Source of the DNA: an uncultured Saprospiraceae bacterium
Lineage (GTDB): Bacteria; Bacteroidota; Bacteroidia; Chitinophagales; Saprospiraceae
Length of the DNA: 64,000 nucleotides
Reading direction: 5' to 3'
Assembly (NCBI GenBank): GCA_937959115.1
Contig: CALGAW010000036.1
Location: 1-64,000 of the forward strand
The first letter of the stretch is position 1. Each line of letters opens with the position of its first letter. The translations under genes and the position numbers were made by a program. This document shows, piece by piece, positions 3,601-26,237 of this stretch. The notes beneath the pieces were generated by a model, which did not search any database, was not told where the DNA came from, and saw only the letters and a list, made by a program, of their open reading frames with translations.

Positions 3601-5811
3601 CTCACGGATACCATACATCGTACCTATACTGTAACAGTTACAAGCGATAACGATTCTACGATTTCAGCAACGACAATGGTGGAAGTAAACAATCCTTTTT
3701 GGATAACTCCAGAATTTGAGGCAATAGACACAATTGTATGCCCAAATGAACCTGTAAATATTGGGCAACCTGGCCTAGTAGGATATACCTATTTATGGTC
3801 CCCACAAACAGGGTTGGATGATCATTCTTCAGCGAATCCTATAGCAACAGTATCTACAACAACCCAATTTATTGTAAGGGTGACAAATACGAACTCTGGC
3901 TGTATGTTGAGGGATACAGCAGTGGTGGGTGTTTCGCCAGTATATGCAGATGCAGGAGATGATGTAGTCCTTTGTGACAATGGAACAATTGTTCTTGGGG
4001 TTCCAGCACAACCAAATGCAATTTACTCCTGGCAGCCTTCAGGAGCAGTTTGGCAAAATGGTACGGATCAGTTTTCTGCACAACCTGAAGTATTGGTTGG
4101 TACGAATACCACGTTTACATTGACTGTTCAAGACACATTGAATGATTGTGTTGATACAGATCTTGTTAATGTTTCTGTCGGAAATCCGATTGTTCCTTTT
4201 CTATTGCAAGACATTACGTATTGCTCGCCTCAGAATAGTATTCAATTAGGCGTCGGTGTGCCATCTGGTTATGCTAGTTATCAATGGTCTCCAAGCCTCA
4301 ACCTATCGAACCCTAGTATTCCAATGCCCACATTGATTACGCCCAGTTCTATCCCCGTGGAATATACCGTGATCGCGACCAATCAATCAGGTTGTACCTC
4401 CATCGCTAAACAATTGGTCAGCCCAAATACTGTGGAGCCGATTGTTGAGTCACCAAAATCGATTTGTGCCGGAGAATCTGTTTATATTGGTAGTAATCAG
4501 AACATAACAGGGCCGGGCATCACTTATTCTTGGAGTCCAATAACAGATATAGATGATCCAACTTCTCCCAACCCGCTTGTAACGGGTTCGGCTTCCGGTT
4601 CTACACTTTATACGGTAACTGTTAATAATAATGGTTGTACTAATTCTGCTTCTATTGAGGTAACGGTCAATGCCTTTGAGATCTCTCTGTCGTCAAAAAT
4701 CGTATGTGCAGGATCCTGTGTTTCTATAGGAGCCCAACCTGTCACGGGGTCATCGTATCTATGGGTTCCTGCGTATGGATTAGACGATCCAACCCTTGCC
4801 AATCCGAAAGCCTGCGTTATGACTGACACCGTATACACACTATATGCTAATGGTCCTACTGGCTGTCAAACCATTGTGGACGTACCAATTTATGTACATC
4901 CCGAATCTGCTCCACAAGTCACTGTTCCTCCTTTATCGGTTTGTTTAGGTAGTGGTCAAGACACGCTAAAGCCAATTGTTGCCCCTACGGGAAGTTATAC
5001 CTACAACTGGGCACCTAACAACGGAACGCTAGATTATCCGAATGCTGAAACGCCTTCTGTCGTCTTGTTTTCTGCTGGCACGCATACTTATGATGTAACC
5101 GTGACCAATACCATTTCTGGCTGTGCCTCCGAGTCTTCCGTTGTCGTAACAGCTGGAAACTGTAATGATCCTGCGTACCTGTGCTCCAATCTTGATGTTT
5201 GTTTAGAAATCGGCATAGATCCAGATCATCCATTAACAACGATTGACTGTGATGGTGATGGAGTCACCAATGAAGACGAATGTGCAGACGGCACGGATCC
5301 ACTCGACCCTTGTGATTATGTGGACACAAGTATCACTTTGCCAGTTACCGCTGACCAAAGTGGTTGTCCACCCACCTGTCCAGATTTGACACCGACTGTC
5401 CGCATTCTCCCTGGAAATCTTTCCGGAAATTCTGTGATTCAAGTTGCTGTTAGAATCTCGGAGGTACACAATATCGACACCGATGCCACTGTCATCAGTG
5501 TTCGTATTCCTTCTGATCCTCGTTTGTTGTTTGTTTGGGATATAGGGTTGACCTTTGCGGCCTTCACCTCTGTACAGAATCCGGATTGGAACTATCTTGG
5601 TGACAATGGTGTTTTCCACACCTGGACGTACAACGGACCGGGACTAATCATCGATGGCCTGAGTACTTCTGCCTTTGGGTTTATTGGTTTCTATGACCCA
5701 CAAGGGACGGACGGGCAAACCAATATTACGGCCACTGTTTTTCCGTTTAGCGGTGGGGAGTGTAATTTGACAAATAATTCAGATTCGGAATTGTTGATTT
5801 ATTTCCAGTAG
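637..5811 (+). CDS. Giant secreted protein: beta-propeller-like N-terminus, Ig/PKD-like repeats, TSP3 loop and shared C-terminal module
   Basis: This 1724-aa protein starts with a signal peptide (Lys-rich start, hydrophobic core ending near LLSAQ). Residues about 30-480 contain SBBP-like beta-propeller units (ATYLGGDGDE, TIYLGGSNWD). Residues about 550-1520 hold roughly ten Ig/PKD-like repeats of the form (Y)xWSPxxGLxxxxxxNPxAxPxxxTxYTLxVT, each with paired Cys. One canonical thrombospondin type 3 calcium loop follows (DCDGDGVTNEDEC, near 5248-5286), then a terminal domain of about 150 residues ending in GGECNLTNNSDSE. That terminal region is closely related to the end of the convergent giant gene. 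It carries neither a type A nor a type B (CHU_C) T9SS sorting domain. It is probably a cell-surface or secreted adhesin-like protein; the role is inferred from architecture only. Confidence 0.85.
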   Translation: MKIKTNLLNLKTIGSLLILVLQLLAFQSLLSAQFYVKESRVISPSSFPRVQQVYNNNLYIIGSTSNTSFPTTDSSTITGSNGLFFLKFDSLSTLVAESKVSEYFYAEQMFIKNDIIYVFGTAPNQLPSHTQVPSSGKNDVYILKLDLDGNLLEATYFGGNKSDSFNSAAIHGNTISLVLSTYSIDIPVTDNSTYKRYTDLVYAQFDLTTLNLNFATYLGGDGDERYGILQTQGTSAYIAYETTSTNLPGAGSDTLNGYSDIAISKIDLSSGNLLSTIYLGGSNWDYPLSFIVQDSELSVYIETNSPDFPLASPSPSYNWTAFARLDTSLNQIVGTYLTYLDELSEVFFVKHNGFYYSVEYEEEDEAELIKFDKNGIIQWRYAPDNNMTTIDLKIYDDKIYYLNYGSQLPVTQNCTYTGANHLEILSQDGDIMYSNFYPVKSSYIKWAFIDSLQHFLVGRSYNSYNNCLPTTDSSQGSGLYTQLVSFEVPEFLGDPNPDNLTQTVCKNGLVDPIRVDPYMVSGTTLPILYECGIPLYQCDIEALYQWQQSNSTSGPWTDIPGGNNANFSPTPVVTTTYYRRLARANKCFNGPIIQTSTIHSVIVNQYQAPYVDAGGVYFSCPGTPVTLNSTISSGTPPFQYSWHASNSATTIGSTANITVTPAQVGSVIYTLYVTDANGCEQLDQAIVHSVIADAGSDIYYCAAQPAPSIGGGSIPIQGVTYQWSPATGLSCANCLHPVATPTVSTLYTLTMTMPVTGNASTCVTTDQVTVIPVDAPAQNFAGVDIIGCGGDNTSIGGAAESGFFYKWSTGYYLTNCNATPTIFNRTCISPNPSTFTLTATNQGCTWEDDMELTVLCTGLGYISCGPGVIGHQDNTPNINETYQWTQLSGDGMIVGPTNTAQTSVSPSITMTSVYEREVSYGGTTCTSTISVPPCANPAPSITQLSSCLNLNTNPDACINISIFGIPYPNTIVWSPQIGLSNYNNRFTCLTDTIHRTYTVTVTSDNDSTISATTMVEVNNPFWITPEFEAIDTIVCPNEPVNIGQPGLVGYTYLWSPQTGLDDHSSANPIATVSTTTQFIVRVTNTNSGCMLRDTAVVGVSPVYADAGDDVVLCDNGTIVLGVPAQPNAIYSWQPSGAVWQNGTDQFSAQPEVLVGTNTTFTLTVQDTLNDCVDTDLVNVSVGNPIVPFLLQDITYCSPQNSIQLGVGVPSGYASYQWSPSLNLSNPSIPMPTLITPSSIPVEYTVIATNQSGCTSIAKQLVSPNTVEPIVESPKSICAGESVYIGSNQNITGPGITYSWSPITDIDDPTSPNPLVTGSASGSTLYTVTVNNNGCTNSASIEVTVNAFEISLSSKIVCAGSCVSIGAQPVTGSSYLWVPAYGLDDPTLANPKACVMTDTVYTLYANGPTGCQTIVDVPIYVHPESAPQVTVPPLSVCLGSGQDTLKPIVAPTGSYTYNWAPNNGTLDYPNAETPSVVLFSAGTHTYDVTVTNTISGCASESSVVVTAGNCNDPAYLCSNLDVCLEIGIDPDHPLTTIDCDGDGVTNEDECADGTDPLDPCDYVDTSITLPVTADQSGCPPTCPDLTPTVRILPGNLSGNSVIQVAVRISEVHNIDTDATVISVRIPSDPRLLFVWDIGLTFAAFTSVQNPDWNYLGDNGVFHTWTYNGPGLIIDGLSTSAFGFIGFYDPQGTDGQTNITATVFPFSGGECNLTNNSDSELLIYFQ

Positions 5812-6105: not shown

Positions 6106-6138
6106 AAAAAAAATGGCCACCCGTTCCCGGATGACCAT
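6106..6138 (-). terminator. Rho-independent terminator of the 1954-aa gene
   Basis: Read on the minus strand, an 11-bp stem (ATGGTCATCCG paired with CGGGTGGCCAT, two G-U pairs) closes a GGAA tetraloop. It is followed at once by eight T. It begins 30 bases after the stop of the minus-strand giant gene. It is one of the clearest intrinsic terminators in the window. Confidence 0.9.
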
Positions 6139-6167
6139 CATAAAACTATCAGTTAATACTCCAAAGA

Positions 6168-9100
6168 TTATTCGAAGTAAACAAGTCGTTCTGAATCTGT
6201 ATTGTTGGAAAGATTACATTCTCCACCACTGAACGGGAATACCGTCGCTGTGATTGTCGTCTGCCCATCCGTACTTTGTGGGTCGTAGGTACCTTCAAAG
6301 CCAAATGCTTCCGTGGCCCCACCGATAATCGTACCACTGTTACTAGTATAGTGCCATTCGTGGAACAATCCACCAATAATACCTTGGTAATTCCAGTCAG
6401 CATTGTTGACAGGAGTTAGTGCCGCAGTCGTTAAATTAGGATTCCAAACAAACACAAATCGTGGGTCATTTGGTATTCTCACTCTAATTAATGAACCGTC
6501 CGTGTCTCGTGTGTTAAGCTCAGTGACCTTCACCGCAACGCCTACACCAGAAACTCCAGCAATATTACCAGGAAGTATCGTCATAATCGGAGTAAGGTCT
6601 GGACATAGTCCTTCACAATTACTCTGATCTGCCGTTACTGGCATGCTGATACTCGTATCTTCAAAATCACAAGGATCTAAAGGATCAGTGCTATCAGTAC
6701 ATTCCATACCATTGCTAACACCATCACCATCACAATCTGAACTACTGATCGGATTGGTTGGATCACTCATAATAAGTGCACAGAGATCAATCTCTTGATC
6801 AACTACAACAGTACAGTCATCTGCAGGATCCGCTGGATCACCACCACTTTGACATTCTGTATAGTTATCAATACCACCGTCATCACAATCTAAGTCCGCC
6901 ATCGGATGATTTGTATCGTAGTTGATTAGCTGACAGATGTTGAGACCTTCATCAATCGCAGCTTGACAGTCGTCTGCTGGATCAAATGGCTCTTCAGCAC
7001 TGTTACACTCATCAATATTCGACACTCCACCATTATCACAGTCTTGATTCGCAAGCGGATGGCTTGGATCTCCGTTGATCATAGCACAAATATCTACATT
7101 ACCAGCTGCTGCTGCCTGACAGTCATCAGAAGCCTCATCTGGGTCCGTTCCGTTTGCACATTCAGTCTGATTATCAATTCCTCCGTTATCACAATCTAGT
7201 GATGCGAGTGGATGATTTGGATCAGCCGTAAGTACTGCACAAATATCTGTGCCGTCTGTAGCAGCTTCTTCACAGAAATCAGTAGGACAATCGATATCGT
7301 CAGAAGGGACTGTTGGATCTAGTCCATCGTCACACTCCGTTTGATTATCAACACCTCCCATATCACAGTCAAGCGTCGCCCAAGGGTGTCCGCCACCAGC
7401 AATAATCGTACAAATATCCATACCTGCTGAAGCAGCAGCTTCACAGTCATCTCCTGCAGTTGCAGGATCTTGGCCATTTGTACATTCTGTAAAGTTATCG
7501 ACACCACCATCATCACAATCTAAGTTTGCAAGCGGATGATTTGGATCATAGTTGATGAGTGCACAAATGTTCAATGCTTCAGCAATCGCTGCTTGACAAT
7601 CGTCAGATGCAGCATTTGGATTTGTTCCAGCAGCACATTCTGTTTGATTATCAACACCACCATTATCACAATCTTGTGTTGCTAGTGGATTACTAGGATC
7701 AGCAGTAAGTACAGCACAAACATCCATTCCTGCAGAACTTGCCGCAGTACAGTCATCAGCTGGATCACTAGGATCGGTGCCTTCCATGCATTCTGTGCCG
7801 TTATCAACACCACCACCATCACAGTCTAAAGTAGCTAATGGACCAGTTGGGTCTCCATCGATAATTGAACAGATATCAGCATCTGCCGCTTCAACACAAG
7901 GATCAAGTGGACAGTCTAAATCATCAGAAGGATCATTAGGATCTGTGCCACTAGCACACTCTGTTTCATTGTCAACACCACCGTTGTCACAATCTAATGC
8001 TGCCCATGGATGTCCGCCACCTGCAATAATTGTACAGATGTCAAGACCACCCTCTGCTGCTGCCTGACAGTCATCAGCTGGATCACTAGGATCTTCGCCA
8101 TTGACACATTCCATATAGTTCGAAACACCACCATTATCACAATCTAATGTTGCTAATGGGTGAGTAGCATCGTAATTGATCAATACACAAATATTTGTTC
8201 CAGAATCAATTGCTGCTTGACAATCATCCGCTGGGTCAGTTGGATCTTCACCACTTTGACATTCAATCATATTTGGTACACCACCATTATCACAATCTAA
8301 CATTGCAAGCGGGTGATCAGGATTATTGGCAATGATCCCACAAATATTCAAATTAGCATCAATAGCTGCTTGACAATCATCTTCAGGATCTGATGGATCT
8401 TCACCGTTATCACATTCTGTCTGATTACTAACGCCTCCACCATCGCAATCTAATGTTGCAAGAGGAGAATTAGGGTTTCCAGCCAAGACAACACAAATGT
8501 CTAAGTTTTCATTTGTAACTTCAACACAAGGATCAAGCGGACAATCTAAATCATCTGAAGGATCATTCGGGTCTGTACCACTTGCACACTCCGTTTCGTT
8601 GTCAATACCACCGTTATCACAATCTAGTGTCGCCCAAGGGTGTCCACCGCCTGCAATAATTTGACAAATGTTCATCCCTGATTCAGCTGCAGCAAGGCAA
8701 TCATCATCAGGATCAGAAGGATCCTGTCCATTTTGACACTCTACAAGGTTTGACACACCGCCGTTATCACAATCTCTAAAAGCTAGCGGGTGTGTTGAAT
8801 CAAAGTTAATTAAAGCACAAATATCGAGACTTGCGTCAATTGCTGCACTACAATCATCCACTGGATTGTTTGGATCTTCCTGTGTATTACATTCAGTAGC
8901 ATTATCAACTCCACCGTTATCACAATCTTGTGTTGCTAGTGGGTTCGTTGGATCATTAATGATGATAACGCATAGGTTTAGATTTGCTGTAAAAACCGTT
9001 CTACAATCATCATCAGGATCTGAAGGATCGCCACCATTATTACATTCCGTTTCGTTATCAATACCACCATTATCACAATCTAATGTTGTCAATGGTGAAC

Positions 9101-12032
9101 GTGGATTATCGCTTATGATTCCACAAATGTCAATCGTTCCTGCATTACCAGCTGCACACAAGTCACAAGCAACTGCTTCAACTCTTACCATAGCAATTGC
9201 GCAACAACCATTGCGATCTGTAACTGAAACGGTATAAACACCGATCTCTAAACCACTTGCTATTGCAGATGTTTGTCCATTGCTCCACATATAAGTGAAA
9301 GGAATTGTTCCACCATTACCTGTGACCGTAGCAGATCCATCATTGATTTGTCCACAACTGACATCGTCTACATCTACCAGTAAGGTAAGTTTAGGGGCTT
9401 CGTCAACTCTAAACTGATCAGTGAGTTCACATCCATTTGCATCTGTAACAATGACTGAATATTGGCCTGCGCCTAGATTTGTGATCATGTTTGAATTTGC
9501 TGTAGCATATGGTTGTCCATCTTTCTCCCACTCATAGGTATAAGGCATTACACCACCCATTGGGGTAATCGTTATGGCACCATCTCCACCTCCATTACAA
9601 CTAACATCCTGAACGGTTGATACGCCGAAGGAAAATACTGGTGGATTTTTAACAAATGCATATCCAGTATCAGAACATCCCTTCGCATCCGTAACGGTAA
9701 CGTAATAATTACCAGTAGACAAATTACTAATGGTTTGTGTATTGCCTGTATTAGACCAAACATAAGTAAAAGGAGGTGTTCCGTTTAAATAAGCGGTTAC
9801 CATTGCGTCATTACTACCTCTACAAGTTACAGGGGTAACGACAAGTGTATCCATTTCACAACTGCAGTCCAACACTATCAAATCTAGCGTCACCTGTTGA
9901 TCAACACATGCCGTAGCATCTGGATTAAATACTTGGATATCGACCGTATAGGATCCTGCATCTGCTGCCGTCACATTTGGAAAGTTTACAGTGGCATTAT
10001 TTGAAGTAAAGCCATTTGGACCTGTCCAAGTATAGGTGGCAATTGCTAGACTGTCGACATAGAAGGTGGCATTGTCTCCTTCACAAACCGGGTCTATATT
10101 CCCTTTTATCAAGGGAGCAAAGGGTTCGATTGACACCGTATTAATCGAGGAGTTTAGACAGTCATCGTAAATTCTGATGGAGTACGTACCTAACGGAAGA
10201 CCAGGGAAGGTGGGAGAAGACTGCAGAGGTCTAGTCACAGGTCCCTGGAATAACTCATACGTATAGGGTGTATTACCATTTGCTCCATTCACCGTGACCA
10301 ATCCAACACCATTGTCACATTCTATACCCCAAGCCGCTTCAAGTGTTGGAGGAATGTATTCGGGAATAACAATTGTATCGTCAACAAAATTACATCCAGA
10401 ATAATTGTTCCAAATCCTGACCCGATACGAACCAGGTGAAAGGTTATACCAAGAGTTATTTATTCCCCCATTTTGAATGTTGACATAAGTTGGTGCAACT
10501 TGATAAAAGTAAAATCGATGTGAAGCAGTATTTCCACCAGTCTGAGTGAAATTTGCAGTAATCGAGTTGGCTGTAACACAGCCCGCCTCAACAACTGGAT
10601 TGTAGGTAAACATCAAGGGGTCATTTATGACAAAACAGGTGTCTATCGAACGTCCACAGGTATCTGTAACTGTGAAGCAATATTGCCCTGCAGGTCCCTC
10701 CACAGTACCGTAATAACTAAATGCTTCAGGTAATGGATTTGGATAACCGGGTGGAGCACTTGTCAATAGGTATTCCTCATTCCCAGCAGGATCAGGGCCA
10801 CCATTATCTCTATATTGACATTTGAATGAAATTAATCCATTTGTACATCCCCATGAAAAGCTTTCGCTAGCAAACATTGTCCATCGAGGACCTCTAAAGG
10901 TTCTACAATAAGAGTCTACATTACCACAACAATCCGTAATTCGCCAACAGTATTGACCGTCTTGAAGATTGAAAAAGGAGTCTACGGTTGTTGGGGGGAT
11001 TGCAGGAGCGCCTGGAGGAACTTGATACGTTTCGTAGGTTATCGTTCCATCTGTACAAACAGCAGGAATATAGGAGCTACTTGTATAAAAATAGAACCAA
11101 TTTCCAATCCCACAGTCATATCGATCAATCCCTGTAACATAGAACCGTTGGAAATAGTTTCGATAAGTGTCTACTAGTCCACAAGCATCTGTCATCGTCA
11201 TTAAGTAATCACCAGTCTGGAAGGCAGGTGACCAGCAAATGGTATCATATTCATATCTATAGTCGATTTGCCCTGAAAGTCCTATTAGGTCTGGATCAGT
11301 AGAAGAAGTAACAGTCCAACTCACAGGGTATTCTGGTTCATAATCATTTGTGTTCTCTAGGGCGGTAAATATTGTACATCCTTCGTTACAAACAAAATAT
11401 CGCCTGAAGTGAAATTGCCTAAAATCAGTTGGATAATCCTTTACGGCAACAATCACATCCCTCGTTTGGAAGTTGTTACACTGATCCCATGCTTGAATTT
11501 GATAGGATCCAGCAGCAAGGTTCGTATGACAACTATCAGGCCCAACATATAAAAGTGTTGGAGGATTTGTAGCTGCATTATAAAGCCGGTATTGATAAGG
11601 AGGGAGTCCTTTCGATGGTGTTCCGCAAACAACCCCGCCACTGGAGCCATCACAGATTGCATCTTCAAAGTAAATCCCTAATTCTAACGTCTGATACGTT
11701 CCAGGTACCACAACCGTAGTTGTTGCAATTGTTCCGCATGCGTCCGCGACCTCTACCGTATAAGTCCCAGCAGCAAGCGAATTAAAGGTTGGTGATTGCT
11801 GTCCTGGAATAGTAATCGGAGAGACAATAGAGTTGTAATAAAAGGTCGTTCCACCAGGTCCGGAAAACGGAACGCCACCGACTGGGGTAATGACTAGTGA
11901 GCCATTCGCTTCGCATGTCGCTACTGATCCAGTACCAGTAACACTCATCGGTGGTCCAGGGCATTGGGCTGACATTACGTAAGTAATGAACATTAAGAAA
12001 ATTGTAATGTAAAAGTGTCTTGGGTTTATCAT
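6168..12032 (-). CDS. Giant secreted protein: SprB-like repeats, 16-unit Cys/Asp repeat array, shared C-terminal module
   Basis: This 1954-aa protein has a signal peptide (hydrophobic FYITIFLMFITYVMSA). Residues about 25-720 are degenerate SprB/PKD-like units of roughly 90 aa (DACGxxxDTxR). Residues about 725-955 contain three clear SprB repeats (TPPFTYVWSNTGNTQTI; VTDANGCE; VTDRNGC). Sixteen 52-aa units follow, of consensus DDCQAAIDxxLNIC, xxHPLAxLDCDNGG, VxNxxECxxGxDP. Only the last unit has the canonical TSP3 loop DCDGDGVSN. The C-terminal domain of about 150 aa matches that of the convergent gene (CPDLTP, ILPGN, VRIPNDPR, FPFSGGECNLSNN). No type A or CHU_C sorting domain is visible. It is probably a surface or secreted adhesin; substrate unknown. 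A strong terminator lies just downstream. Confidence 0.87.
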   Translation of the reverse strand: MINPRHFYITIFLMFITYVMSAQCPGPPMSVTGTGSVATCEANGSLVITPVGGVPFSGPGGTTFYYNSIVSPITIPGQQSPTFNSLAAGTYTVEVADACGTIATTTVVVPGTYQTLELGIYFEDAICDGSSGGVVCGTPSKGLPPYQYRLYNAATNPPTLLYVGPDSCHTNLAAGSYQIQAWDQCNNFQTRDVIVAVKDYPTDFRQFHFRRYFVCNEGCTIFTALENTNDYEPEYPVSWTVTSSTDPDLIGLSGQIDYRYEYDTICWSPAFQTGDYLMTMTDACGLVDTYRNYFQRFYVTGIDRYDCGIGNWFYFYTSSSYIPAVCTDGTITYETYQVPPGAPAIPPTTVDSFFNLQDGQYCWRITDCCGNVDSYCRTFRGPRWTMFASESFSWGCTNGLISFKCQYRDNGGPDPAGNEEYLLTSAPPGYPNPLPEAFSYYGTVEGPAGQYCFTVTDTCGRSIDTCFVINDPLMFTYNPVVEAGCVTANSITANFTQTGGNTASHRFYFYQVAPTYVNIQNGGINNSWYNLSPGSYRVRIWNNYSGCNFVDDTIVIPEYIPPTLEAAWGIECDNGVGLVTVNGANGNTPYTYELFQGPVTRPLQSSPTFPGLPLGTYSIRIYDDCLNSSINTVSIEPFAPLIKGNIDPVCEGDNATFYVDSLAIATYTWTGPNGFTSNNATVNFPNVTAADAGSYTVDIQVFNPDATACVDQQVTLDLIVLDCSCEMDTLVVTPVTCRGSNDAMVTAYLNGTPPFTYVWSNTGNTQTISNLSTGNYYVTVTDAKGCSDTGYAFVKNPPVFSFGVSTVQDVSCNGGGDGAITITPMGGVMPYTYEWEKDGQPYATANSNMITNLGAGQYSVIVTDANGCELTDQFRVDEAPKLTLLVDVDDVSCGQINDGSATVTGNGGTIPFTYMWSNGQTSAIASGLEIGVYTVSVTDRNGCCAIAMVRVEAVACDLCAAGNAGTIDICGIISDNPRSPLTTLDCDNGGIDNETECNNGGDPSDPDDDCRTVFTANLNLCVIIINDPTNPLATQDCDNGGVDNATECNTQEDPNNPVDDCSAAIDASLDICALINFDSTHPLAFRDCDNGGVSNLVECQNGQDPSDPDDDCLAAAESGMNICQIIAGGGHPWATLDCDNGGIDNETECASGTDPNDPSDDLDCPLDPCVEVTNENLDICVVLAGNPNSPLATLDCDGGGVSNQTECDNGEDPSDPEDDCQAAIDANLNICGIIANNPDHPLAMLDCDNGGVPNMIECQSGEDPTDPADDCQAAIDSGTNICVLINYDATHPLATLDCDNGGVSNYMECVNGEDPSDPADDCQAAAEGGLDICTIIAGGGHPWAALDCDNGGVDNETECASGTDPNDPSDDLDCPLDPCVEAADADICSIIDGDPTGPLATLDCDGGGVDNGTECMEGTDPSDPADDCTAASSAGMDVCAVLTADPSNPLATQDCDNGGVDNQTECAAGTNPNAASDDCQAAIAEALNICALINYDPNHPLANLDCDDGGVDNFTECTNGQDPATAGDDCEAAASAGMDICTIIAGGGHPWATLDCDMGGVDNQTECDDGLDPTVPSDDIDCPTDFCEEAATDGTDICAVLTADPNHPLASLDCDNGGIDNQTECANGTDPDEASDDCQAAAAGNVDICAMINGDPSHPLANQDCDNGGVSNIDECNSAEEPFDPADDCQAAIDEGLNICQLINYDTNHPMADLDCDDGGIDNYTECQSGGDPADPADDCTVVVDQEIDLCALIMSDPTNPISSSDCDGDGVSNGMECTDSTDPLDPCDFEDTSISMPVTADQSNCEGLCPDLTPIMTILPGNIAGVSGVGVAVKVTELNTRDTDGSLIRVRIPNDPRFVFVWNPNLTTAALTPVNNADWNYQGIIGGLFHEWHYTSNSGTIIGGATEAFGFEGTYDPQSTDGQTTITATVFPFSGGECNLSNNTDSERLVYFE
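6640..9170 (-). repeat. In-gene array of 16 units (~156 nt) with four-unit higher-order period (~630 nt)
   Basis: The DCD motif of each unit recurs about every 150-165 nt from near 9068 down to 6734, giving 16 units. Every fourth unit (4, 8, 12) has the variant IIAGGGHPWA and an extended exit with DPNDPSDDLDC or a close variant, at about 8640, 8010 and 7385, that is 625-631 nt apart. Units 3, 7, 11 and 15 share a LINYD/LINFD variant. The array therefore grew by duplicating a block of four. Each unit carries about four Cys, so the array has more than 60. Confidence 0.9.
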
Positions 12033-25139: not shown

Positions 25140-26237
25140 ATGGCAAAGTATATATATCAATACAAGAATTGGCCGAATTTTACTTGGAATGAAGAAGAAA
25201 TTCAAGTCATTTTAGGAAAAGTTAGACATCTACAGGGAAAGCTCTTTGGTCAAATGAGTGCTTTAGGGTTCTCTATAAAAGAAGAAACACTGTTAGCAGT
25301 ATTGATCGTTGATGTATTAAAATCATCAGAAATAGAAGGAGAAAATCTCGATTATGAGCAAGTAAGATCATCCATCGCTAAAAAACTAGGTTTAGATTAT
25401 AATGACACGATTTATCCAAGTAGAGCTATTGAAGGAGTGGTTGAAATGATGCTCGATGCAACACAGAATTTGGATCAGCCTCTTGATGAGGAACGCTTGT
25501 TTAATTGGCATGCCGCACTATTCCCAACAGGTAGAAGTGGCATGCATAAGATAGAAACGGCCTGTTATAGAACGGGGGAAATGCAAATTGTCTCTGGACC
25601 GATGGGAAAAGAACGCGTTCATTATCAAGCTCCGCCTCCAACCGTTATGAAAAAGGAAATGGATGTGTTTTTAAATTGGTTTAATAACGATTCCTCATTA
25701 GACTTGGTCGTAAAATCTGCGGTTGCACATTTTTGGTTTATAATCATTCATCCGTTTGATGATGGTAATGGAAGGATTGCAAGAGCACTTTCCGATTTGT
25801 TATTGGCTCGATCTGAAAATAGTACATTTAGATTTTATAGTCTTTCAAAGCAAATATTATTCGAAAAGAAGGTTTATTACGCTATGTTACAAGAAGTACA
25901 GCAGAGTGATGGGGATATTACAAAATGGATTCTTTGGTTTCTAAATTCCCTTTATCGAGCATTAAAATCAACAGAAGAGTCGATAAAGAACATTCTTAGA
26001 AAAGCTGATTTCTGGGATATTCATAAGGAAACAATATTAAACAGCAGACAACGACTAATGCTTAACAAGTTACTAGGTGATTTTATTGGAAAATTAAAAA
26101 CATCCAAGTGGGCAAAAATGGCTAAGTGCTCCCAAGACACCGCATTACGAGACATCAAAGATTTAATTGAAAAAGGGATATTAAAACTAGAAGATTCTGG
26201 TGGTAGAAGTACAACCTATGAATTAAAAGAGTTTTAG
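25140..26237 (+). CDS. Fic family protein (DUF4172 N-terminus, Fic core, C-terminal HTH)
   Basis: A 365-aa protein. Residues 1-80 are a DUF4172-like domain with the inhibitory-helix motif SSEIEG (62-67), which in class II Fic proteins blocks ATP until relieved. The catalytic core HPFDDGNGRIAR (204-215) matches HxFxxGNGRxxR, so AMPylation or related nucleotidyl transfer is expected. Residues about 300-365 look like a winged helix (CSQDTALRDIKDLIEKG). It is monocistronic, with an operator-like repeat over its promoter. Targets are unknown. It is not obviously part of a toxin-antitoxin pair, because the inhibitory helix is internal. Confidence 0.93.
   Translation: MAKYIYQYKNWPNFTWNEEEIQVILGKVRHLQGKLFGQMSALGFSIKEETLLAVLIVDVLKSSEIEGENLDYEQVRSSIAKKLGLDYNDTIYPSRAIEGVVEMMLDATQNLDQPLDEERLFNWHAALFPTGRSGMHKIETACYRTGEMQIVSGPMGKERVHYQAPPPTVMKKEMDVFLNWFNNDSSLDLVVKSAVAHFWFIIIHPFDDGNGRIARALSDLLLARSENSTFRFYSLSKQILFEKKVYYAMLQEVQQSDGDITKWILWFLNSLYRALKSTEESIKNILRKADFWDIHKETILNSRQRLMLNKLLGDFIGKLKTSKWAKMAKCSQDTALRDIKDLIEKGILKLEDSGGRSTTYELKEF

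Follow-up and report, generated by a model that had tools for sequence, protein, structure and literature searches.

Can a repeat that appears to have given up a calcium ligand still build a calcium-stiffened stalk? The question is raised by P0001, an open frame of 1,954 amino acids on the minus strand of the window, by which we mean the whole 64,000-nucleotide stretch analyzed (positions 1 to 64,000 of contig CALGAW010000036.1, assembly GCA_937959115.1, from an uncultured Saprospiraceae bacterium). P0001 contains an array of 16 cysteine-rich units followed by a C-terminal domain. Our reading, which we hold to be the probable one with a fair margin for error, is that the array would be the stalk of a large surface protein that leaves the cell through the type IX secretion system (T9SS): a rod stiffened by disulfides and calcium, with a relocated calcium ligand, a hinge between blocks of units and a C-terminal signal for export or anchoring. 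The parts of P0001, in window coordinates, are as follows.

6168–12032, minus strand: P0001, whole open frame, 1,954 residues, with a signal-peptide-like start, head, SprB repeats, 16-unit array and C-terminal domain
11967–12032, minus strand: N-terminal signal-peptide-like stretch, judged by eye
9183–9845 (approximate limits), minus strand: SprB repeats immediately ahead of the array (Pfam SprB, PF13573, four stretches, 2.5e-25)
9006–9161, minus strand: unit 1, DCDNGG
8853–9005, minus strand: unit 2, DCDNGG
8700–8852, minus strand: unit 3, DCDNGG
8544–8699, minus strand: unit 4, DCDNGG, GGGHPWA variant
8529–8549, minus strand: first extra-Cys linker between four-unit blocks (LDCPLDP)
8376–8543, minus strand: unit 5, DCDGGG, fifth Cys in its N-terminal linker
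8223–8375, minus strand: unit 6, DCDNGG
8070–8222, minus strand: unit 7, DCDNGG
7914–8069, minus strand: unit 8, DCDNGG, GGGHPWA variant
7899–7919, minus strand: second extra-Cys linker
7752–7913, minus strand: unit 9, DCDGGG, linker with fifth Cys
7599–7751, minus strand: unit 10, DCDNGG
7446–7598, minus strand: unit 11, DCDDGG
7290–7445, minus strand: unit 12, DCDMGG, GGGHPWA variant
7275–7295, minus strand: third extra-Cys linker
7122–7289, minus strand: unit 13, DCDNGG, linker with fifth Cys
6969–7121, minus strand: unit 14, DCDNGG
6816–6968, minus strand: unit 15, DCDDGG
6666–6815, minus strand: unit 16, the last, DCDGDG; it lacks the acidic pair, and the next Cys follows nine residues past the loop
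6171–6665, minus strand: C-terminal domain, candidate T9SS sorting domain (165 residues searched, profile core 153)

The array spans residues 958 to 1789 (window 6666–9161) in one open frame, and the C-terminal domain residues 1790 to 1954. An earlier note on this DNA had described sixteen cysteine-rich units of 52 residues, or about 156 nucleotides. The sixteen units are confirmed within these limits, and the repeat stands but its exact length does not: the motif spacing runs from 50 to 58 residues, with a mode of 51. As the note had observed, 15 of the 16 units read DCDxGG (10 DCDNGG, 2 DCDGGG, 2 DCDDGG, and 1 DCDMGG), and unit 16 alone has the canonical DCDGDG; its figure of about four cysteines per unit also holds, with four in 12 units and five in units 5, 9, 13, and 16. 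Residue shuffling of P0001 (2,000 rounds) produced the DCDx[GD]G motif at most twice per shuffle. The GGGHPWA variant, said to recur in every fourth unit, is present in units 4, 8, and 12 (residues 1128, 1338, and 1546, spaced by 630 and 624 nucleotides) but absent from unit 16, the next in phase. Codon-aligned DNA identity between units is 0.658 at a lag of four and 0.648 at a lag of eight, compared with 0.60–0.62 at lags 1–3 and 5–7; at lag 12, which offers four pairs only, identity is 0.604 and the period is absent. For units 1 to 15, the difference underlying the four-unit period was reached by 1 of 20,000 shuffles. Tandem Repeats Finder recovered only 2.3 copies at the DNA level, indicating strong divergence among the copies.

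P0001 is not alone in having such an array; the stalk belongs to a gene family. In the window's genome (6.38 Mb, 90 contigs), one form of the DNA motif gave 249 matches and its reversed control none. From the best matches, 20 further regions were picked and joined to the window locus; this own-genome set, which covers part of the family, comprises 27 open frames, or 26 proteins (one was read as two overlapping pieces), with 428 profile matches before de-duplication. De-duplicated loops with both Cys number 411, of which 393 have Gly at loop position 5 (Gly-5) and 18 have Asp (Asp-5). Column counts were taken over all 428 rows, not de-duplicated and including a few plain thrombospondin type 3 (TSP3) loops. 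Loop positions 1 and 3 are Asp in 426 of 426 aligned loops, position 5 is Gly in 399, position 9 is Asn in 419, and position 12 is Glu in 423. Every letter in columns C1 (395) and C12 (418) is Cys, and wherever a unit row lacks a standard Cys, it is a plain TSP3 loop. A different count found no Cys 11–20 residues upstream in 13 of 416 own loops; an insertion accounts for 12 of these, and the other loop opens the L022 array. In the unit's tail, column 50, directly preceding the next unit's first Cys, is Asp in 414 of 414 letters and column 51 in 386 of 386; a direct count adds 13 Glu at column 51 that the profile alignment omitted.

This acidic pair goes with the residue at loop position 5. In own arrays, 313 of 313 Gly-5 units with 12-residue spacing have DD or DE, while 18 of the 19 own Asp-5 loops have the next Cys at nine residues and no pair (the remaining one has no Cys in range). 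The same spacing in loci from named metagenome-assembled genomes (MAGs) gives the pair in 47/47 Gly-5 and 0/4 Asp-5 units, the latter ending in DA (three, each with an ordinary unit next) or DN (one, the last unit). Array L041, from another genome, alternates both types and follows the rule in 28 of 28 units (13 Gly-5 with the pair, 15 Asp-5 without). The tail of the preceding unit shows the opposite there, with 12 of 15 Asp-5 units coming after a pair, which identifies the unit's own tail as the partner of position 5.

Counted by group, Gly-5 or Ala-5 units carry the pair in 387 of 391 own cases (two more are cut off), in 38/43 in genome G158, 16/16 in G138 (one cut off; two are Ala-5), 6/6 in G001, and 2/2 in G232, and among the MAGs in 48/51 in CALLFA, 14/14 in JAHDDF, and 4/4 in CALGLU; both Ala-5 units have it (2/2). 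Six of the exceptions (four own, one each in G158 and CALLFA) do contain DD, behind an extra Cys, and were scored as misses; the rest (four in G158, two in CALLFA) have a longer tail. Asp-5 loops carry the pair in 1/27 own cases, 0/1 in G158, 0/2 in G232, 0/18 in G593, and 0/21 in CALLFA, a weaker test in that some of the loops counted do not have both Cys (9 of 27 own, 1 of 1 in G158, 18 of 18 in G593, and 6 of 21 in CALLFA). The sole own Asp-5 loop with a pair is a plain TSP3 loop. These groups are not independent, because G158 and CALLFA are visibly related. The earlier note had called the ligand lost. Since Gly-5 is instead the rule of the family and is coupled to a tail pair that Asp-5 units lack, comparison of the sequences suggests that the position-5 ligand has probably been relocated to the unit's own tail.

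Among the genomes sampled, the array is rare and patchy. Within the order, 9 of 298 genomes matched the unit profile, including the window's own, strongly in five (own, G158, G138, G001, and G232) and weakly in four; among 395 genomes drawn from the phylum, three matched it, the own genome and two weak cases. Two short peptide patterns, run against named genomes that may not include the window's own, located six loci in three MAGs labeled Saprospiraceae, and the array in G158, a member of the window's family, is close to that of one named MAG. Two other architectures appeared. L119 (G593:C21) is a piece of open frame of 3,197 residues; its 17 unit matches are irregularly spaced, every one of them Asp-5, and its tail is near type B. 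Its units are possibly an older form. L035 and L116 (both G138) have pairs of units alternating with a domain of about 120 residues (spacings of 51 and 170), a stalk of mixed composition in a partly masked stretch.

With 185 Asp or Glu and three Lys or Arg in 832 residues, the array is hard to picture folded without bound cations. An AlphaFold2 model of units 1 to 8, built from ten alignment rows, has short helices and no strands, with a mean predicted local distance difference test (pLDDT) of 89.2. Confidence is lowest (below 50) at model residues 205–207, inside the extra-Cys linker between units 4 and 5; the linker is present in 2 of the 10 input rows, so that sparse data, and not a hinge, may be behind the dip. 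Foldseek comparison of the eight-unit model with the PDB gave nothing convincing (best E 3.9), and VIA-align gave no match at Z of at least 2 among 66 chains. We do not claim a new fold, because a model of more than 400 residues can hide a single-domain match. An attempt to infer disulfide pairs from the loss of Cys was set aside, the cases being too few for any pairing. Separately, L013, L016, L019, L020, and others have stretches beside their linkers with extra Cys in helix (b) and tail (c), perhaps an additional disulfide.

The blocks of P0001 follow a grammar common to other arrays. The extra-Cys linker recurs after four units in 30 of 41 intervals; the others span six units (seven times), three (twice), nine, and ten. 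By a crude pattern, 53 of 62 linkers follow a unit with Trp just ahead of its loop, and five Trp units have no linker. Of the 19 arrays that include both a linker and the stop codon, 14 have as their last detected unit the fourth past the last linker; the remaining five (L022, two L031, and two L032) have the first. Units of like phase are alike across proteins (0.607 versus 0.554, 0 of 2,000 shuffles; 120 units in clean blocks from 11 open frames), and the result is again 0 of 2,000 with the Trp phase removed. The four-unit block is thus common to several proteins and seems to predate the spread of the paralogues. Together with the lag-4 and lag-8 identities, this resemblance supports growth of the array by block duplication, as the earlier note had suggested. 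Two arrays depart from the pattern. L041 has a five-unit spacing, and L017 (G000:C31:1-6500) contains 25 units at a constant spacing of 49 residues without linkers, beside blocks of the four-unit type, perhaps a separate expansion; the four-unit block is accordingly not obligatory, and a strict structural four-fold is weakened. In many blocks (L013, L014, L015, L019, and L020), the Trp unit has a DPDGDG-type insert where P0001 has GGG, possibly a second calcium loop.

The C-terminal domain occurs 76 times in the genome, twice as a fragment (45 residues at a contig edge and 28 residues). Each of the other 74 own proteins has a single copy, which in 74 of 74 ends no more than three residues from the stop codon, and all 12 matches in other genomes (10 genomes; two matches below 20 bits) end 2–8 residues before the stop; its profile is present in 12 of 298 genomes of the order. 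A crude signal-peptide test was passed by 61 of 67 N-terminally complete domain proteins, versus 4 of 67 mid-protein controls, and the six that failed look signal-peptide-like by eye. The cargo is varied: a scan of 10 of the 74 domain proteins found, over cut-off, a sulfatase, an alpha/beta hydrolase, and PKD, cadherin/Big_9, LVIVD, and MopE-type proteins, with a copper monooxygenase-like protein below cut-off and two proteins without a match. SprA, the sole T9SS component searched, is encoded in the genome (2423 bits), as are 38 type B matches over cut-off and at least 150 type A matches, all over cut-off (150 of 575 candidates scored). A signal peptide by the crude test, a terminal domain, and SprA in the genome are what the anatomy of a T9SS cargo calls for, and we propose the domain as a further candidate T9SS signal. 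T9SS signal types A, B, and C are named in the review PMC10202324, which also asks how the different signals are recognized. SprA itself (G000:C15, 81310–88527, minus strand) lies about 1 kb from two same-strand domain genes ending at 89611 and 91039 (the L102 region and L062), a proximity that, with 74 such genes, could be chance.

The domain could not be placed in a known T9SS class by homology. Compared by hhalign with type A and type B tails from its own genome, ten of each, it gave a probability of 0.2% in both cases, whereas A against B gave 41.8%, and neither TIGR04183 (type A) nor TIGR04131 (type B) claims it. None of the 39 domain members matches the type C model NF033708 (T9SS_Cterm_ChiA), whose seven sub-cut-off matches in the genome all lie outside the domain's 76 places. 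In the same 39 members, NCBIfam gave no T9SS model and TIGR03000 in two only, which we take as chance; Pfam gave CBM_2 weakly in nine (best E 0.0017) and no family in more. The tails of foreign arrays are of other kinds. Scanning the last 130 residues of nine of them, we found that L041 and L038 match type B, and L118 type A, over cut-off, and that L040 matches the three-coathanger stack model NF045639; L119 and L116 matched type B and L117 type A below cut-off, and L039 and L115 had no match in that stretch. The stalk is therefore a modular part that combines with different tails, known T9SS signals among them in at least three cases.

Under the reading proposed here, each unit would be a four-Cys helical module grown out of a bacterial TSP3 calcium loop. 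A Sec signal would take the protein to the periplasm, and T9SS would carry it across the outer membrane by means of the C-terminal domain. Once at the surface, the protein's acidic units would bind calcium, neutralizing their extreme acidity, and disulfides would staple the rod. With Gly in place of the fifth-position carboxylate, an acid in that unit's own tail, directly ahead of the first Cys of the next unit, would take over its role in space. Such a tail acid would link the metal site to the joint between the two units, which calcium would thereby stiffen. Four units would form a block, whose boundary, with its extra Cys and linker, is a possible hinge. The N-terminal head would be carried outward, the C-terminal domain acting as an export or anchoring signal. 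That both the calcium-loop architecture with its fifth ligand moved to the repeat junction and the further T9SS signal class (at least 74 proteins) are new is a claim we put just short of an even chance. A literature search covering few subscription journals found no paper on such a stalk or a further class of C-terminal domain, and a term search in the accessible part of PMC12618676 gave no match. If the proposal is correct, the coupling of Gly-5 and tail acid would be a directly testable example of a calcium ligand that changed its place in the sequence, with natural variants in the hundreds, and the domain would add a signal class to T9SS and make many surface proteins of the lineage annotatable as cargo.

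Several observations weigh against this proposal. The eight-unit model has a predicted template modeling score (pTM) of 0.48, and the model of the C-terminal domain, from two rows, has a pLDDT of 36.7, and nothing was drawn from it. The extra Cys of the linker gives each four-unit block an odd number of cysteines, for which intrachain pairing alone is insufficient, and one unit type in L039, L034, and L115 has His in place of C12 (3 of 181 loops in foreign arrays, with an extra Cys nearby; two are from one gene). The acidic pair also falls at the start of the next helix predicted by AlphaFold2 and could be a helix cap, and the coupling may come from two inherited kinds of unit rather than from function, the genomes being related and the units of an array non-independent. 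Were the position-5 ligand simply lost, disulfides alone would hold the stalk, the loops would be weak or dead, and the pair would do nothing but cap the helix. The location of the pair suits this account, as do the removal of the canonical ligand by Gly-5 and a conservation of Cys so strict that it could suffice for stiffness. A dead site, however, would not need loop positions 1, 3, 9, and 12, which are kept in 419–426 of 426 loops, and the excess of 185 acidic over 3 basic residues, together with three Asp-5 units that precede an ordinary unit and lose only the second acid while keeping the first (DA in 3/3), makes simple loss unlikely in our view. It is also improbable, we think, that Gly-5 with the pair and Asp-5 without it are just two old unit lineages, coupled by descent and not by compensation. 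The own Cys-bearing Asp-5 units are indeed nearly all the last before the C-terminal domain, a single position-specific lineage, and some Asp-5 counts draw on loops lacking both Cys, leaving three clean 12-spaced internal cases. Yet those three differ from Gly-5 units at the second acid only, Ala-5 behaves like Gly-5 (2/2), and in L041 the two types interleave within one array, changing together in 28 of 28 units.

As for the C-terminal domain, an adhesive or carbohydrate-binding module could produce the sub-cut-off CBM_2 matches in 9 of 39 members (best E 0.0017; 17.6 bits for the window copy, against a cut-off of 24) and the weak PDB matches to chains named exoglucanase or xylanase (E 0.13). 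Against such a module stand a terminal position in 74/74 own proteins and within eight residues of the end in 12/12 elsewhere, a single copy per protein, and heads as different as a sulfatase and an alpha/beta hydrolase (10 of 74 scanned); we doubt that adhesion is the better description and continue to favor a sorting signal. The four-unit period poses a more even choice. Block duplication alone would preserve a four-unit spacing, and both the five-unit spacing of L041 and the 25 linker-free units of L017 at 49-residue spacing fit a relic with no structural meaning, an explanation with a substantial prospect of being right, though clearly less than even. On the other side are the return of the linker at four units, seen across many proteins in 30 of 41 intervals, and the like-phase resemblance across 11 open frames (0.607 versus 0.554, 0/2,000 shuffles), from which the block appears old and kept.

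The surroundings of P0001 contain two features that touch these subjects.

6112–6139, minus strand: terminator-like hairpin of 12 pairs with a T run, directly past the P0001 stop codon
637–5811, plus strand: convergent neighbor of 1,724 residues with one DCDGDG unit and a C-terminal domain as in P0001, but no array

Evidence for the hairpin is weak, the stretch having five terminator-like sites against 4.0 ± 2.2 in shuffles; a promoter scan of it gave 21 sites against 21.1. The convergent genes have homologous tails (5245–5790, plus strand, and 6189–6737, minus strand) that form an inverted pair of about 550 bases with 64.6% DNA identity, a possible site of inversion or tail exchange. An ordinary gene nearby encodes a Fic/DOC protein with DUF4172 (25140–26237, plus strand).

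How, then, does P0001 compare with known systems? GhpA, the grappling-hook protein of Aureispira sp. CCB-QB1 (PDB 9flp), is likewise a giant surface protein, and its Ig/SprB-type stretch matches the part of P0001 ahead of the array (E 3.6e-66). We rejected a hook of the GhpA type, the strong match being limited to Ig/SprB-type stretches, with the array and C-terminal domain unmatched. The C-terminal domain resembles T9SS types A (TIGR04183), B (TIGR04131), and C (NF033708) in its terminal position, signal peptide, varied cargo, and SprA-encoding genome; it differs in its length of about 150 residues and in an ending that reads SE-x-[LVI]-x-YF in most own copies. For the array unit, Pfam, NCBIfam, and PDB searches supplied no name, so the possibility of an already defined family, which the earlier note had left to be checked, found no support there. 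PDB sequences include no relative of the window's array, the profile giving only a spurious lysostaphin match (E 0.053). Two Pfam matches were taken as chance: Adipokin_hormo on P0001 (residues 1265–1292), over its cut-off at 24 versus 22.9 bits, and BDHCT in 9 of 38 two-unit members (best E 0.00095).

Animal thrombospondin type 3 repeats contain disulfides. Like the array, they also have tandem acidic loops, which in TSP3 bind calcium, but the Dx[DN]xDG motif is broken in the array at the third Asp. PMC3123361 names PDB 1ux6 for the animal repeats and describes the EF-hand-like Dx[DN]xDG loop as having ligands at positions 1, 3, 5, and 12, with a usual residue at 9. The array loops have the expected residues at 1, 3, 9, and 12 and depart from them at 5, for which the tail acid is a candidate substitute. 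The nearest likeness is to bacterial TSP3 (TSP3_bac, PF18884), through D-x-D-x-x-G-x-x-[DN]-x-x-E ... G-x-D-P-x-D-P; unit 16 and the neighbor's single unit come near that model. The PF18884 motif has an acidic residue at loop position 5, whereas the array unit has Gly there in 399 of 426 loops, four Cys, about 28 further residues, and the acidic pair. P0001 scores 16.2 bits (unit 16 only) and P0002 24.5 against a gathering score of 25, leaving 15 of the 16 window units unmatched, and 4 of 38 two-unit members match (best E 0.039); the earlier view of a unit distinct from ordinary TSP3 is borne out. We have not filed the unit under TSP3_bac because the position-5 acid is missing and the curated score is unreached, but it probably descends from TSP3 and works like a TSP3 stalk.

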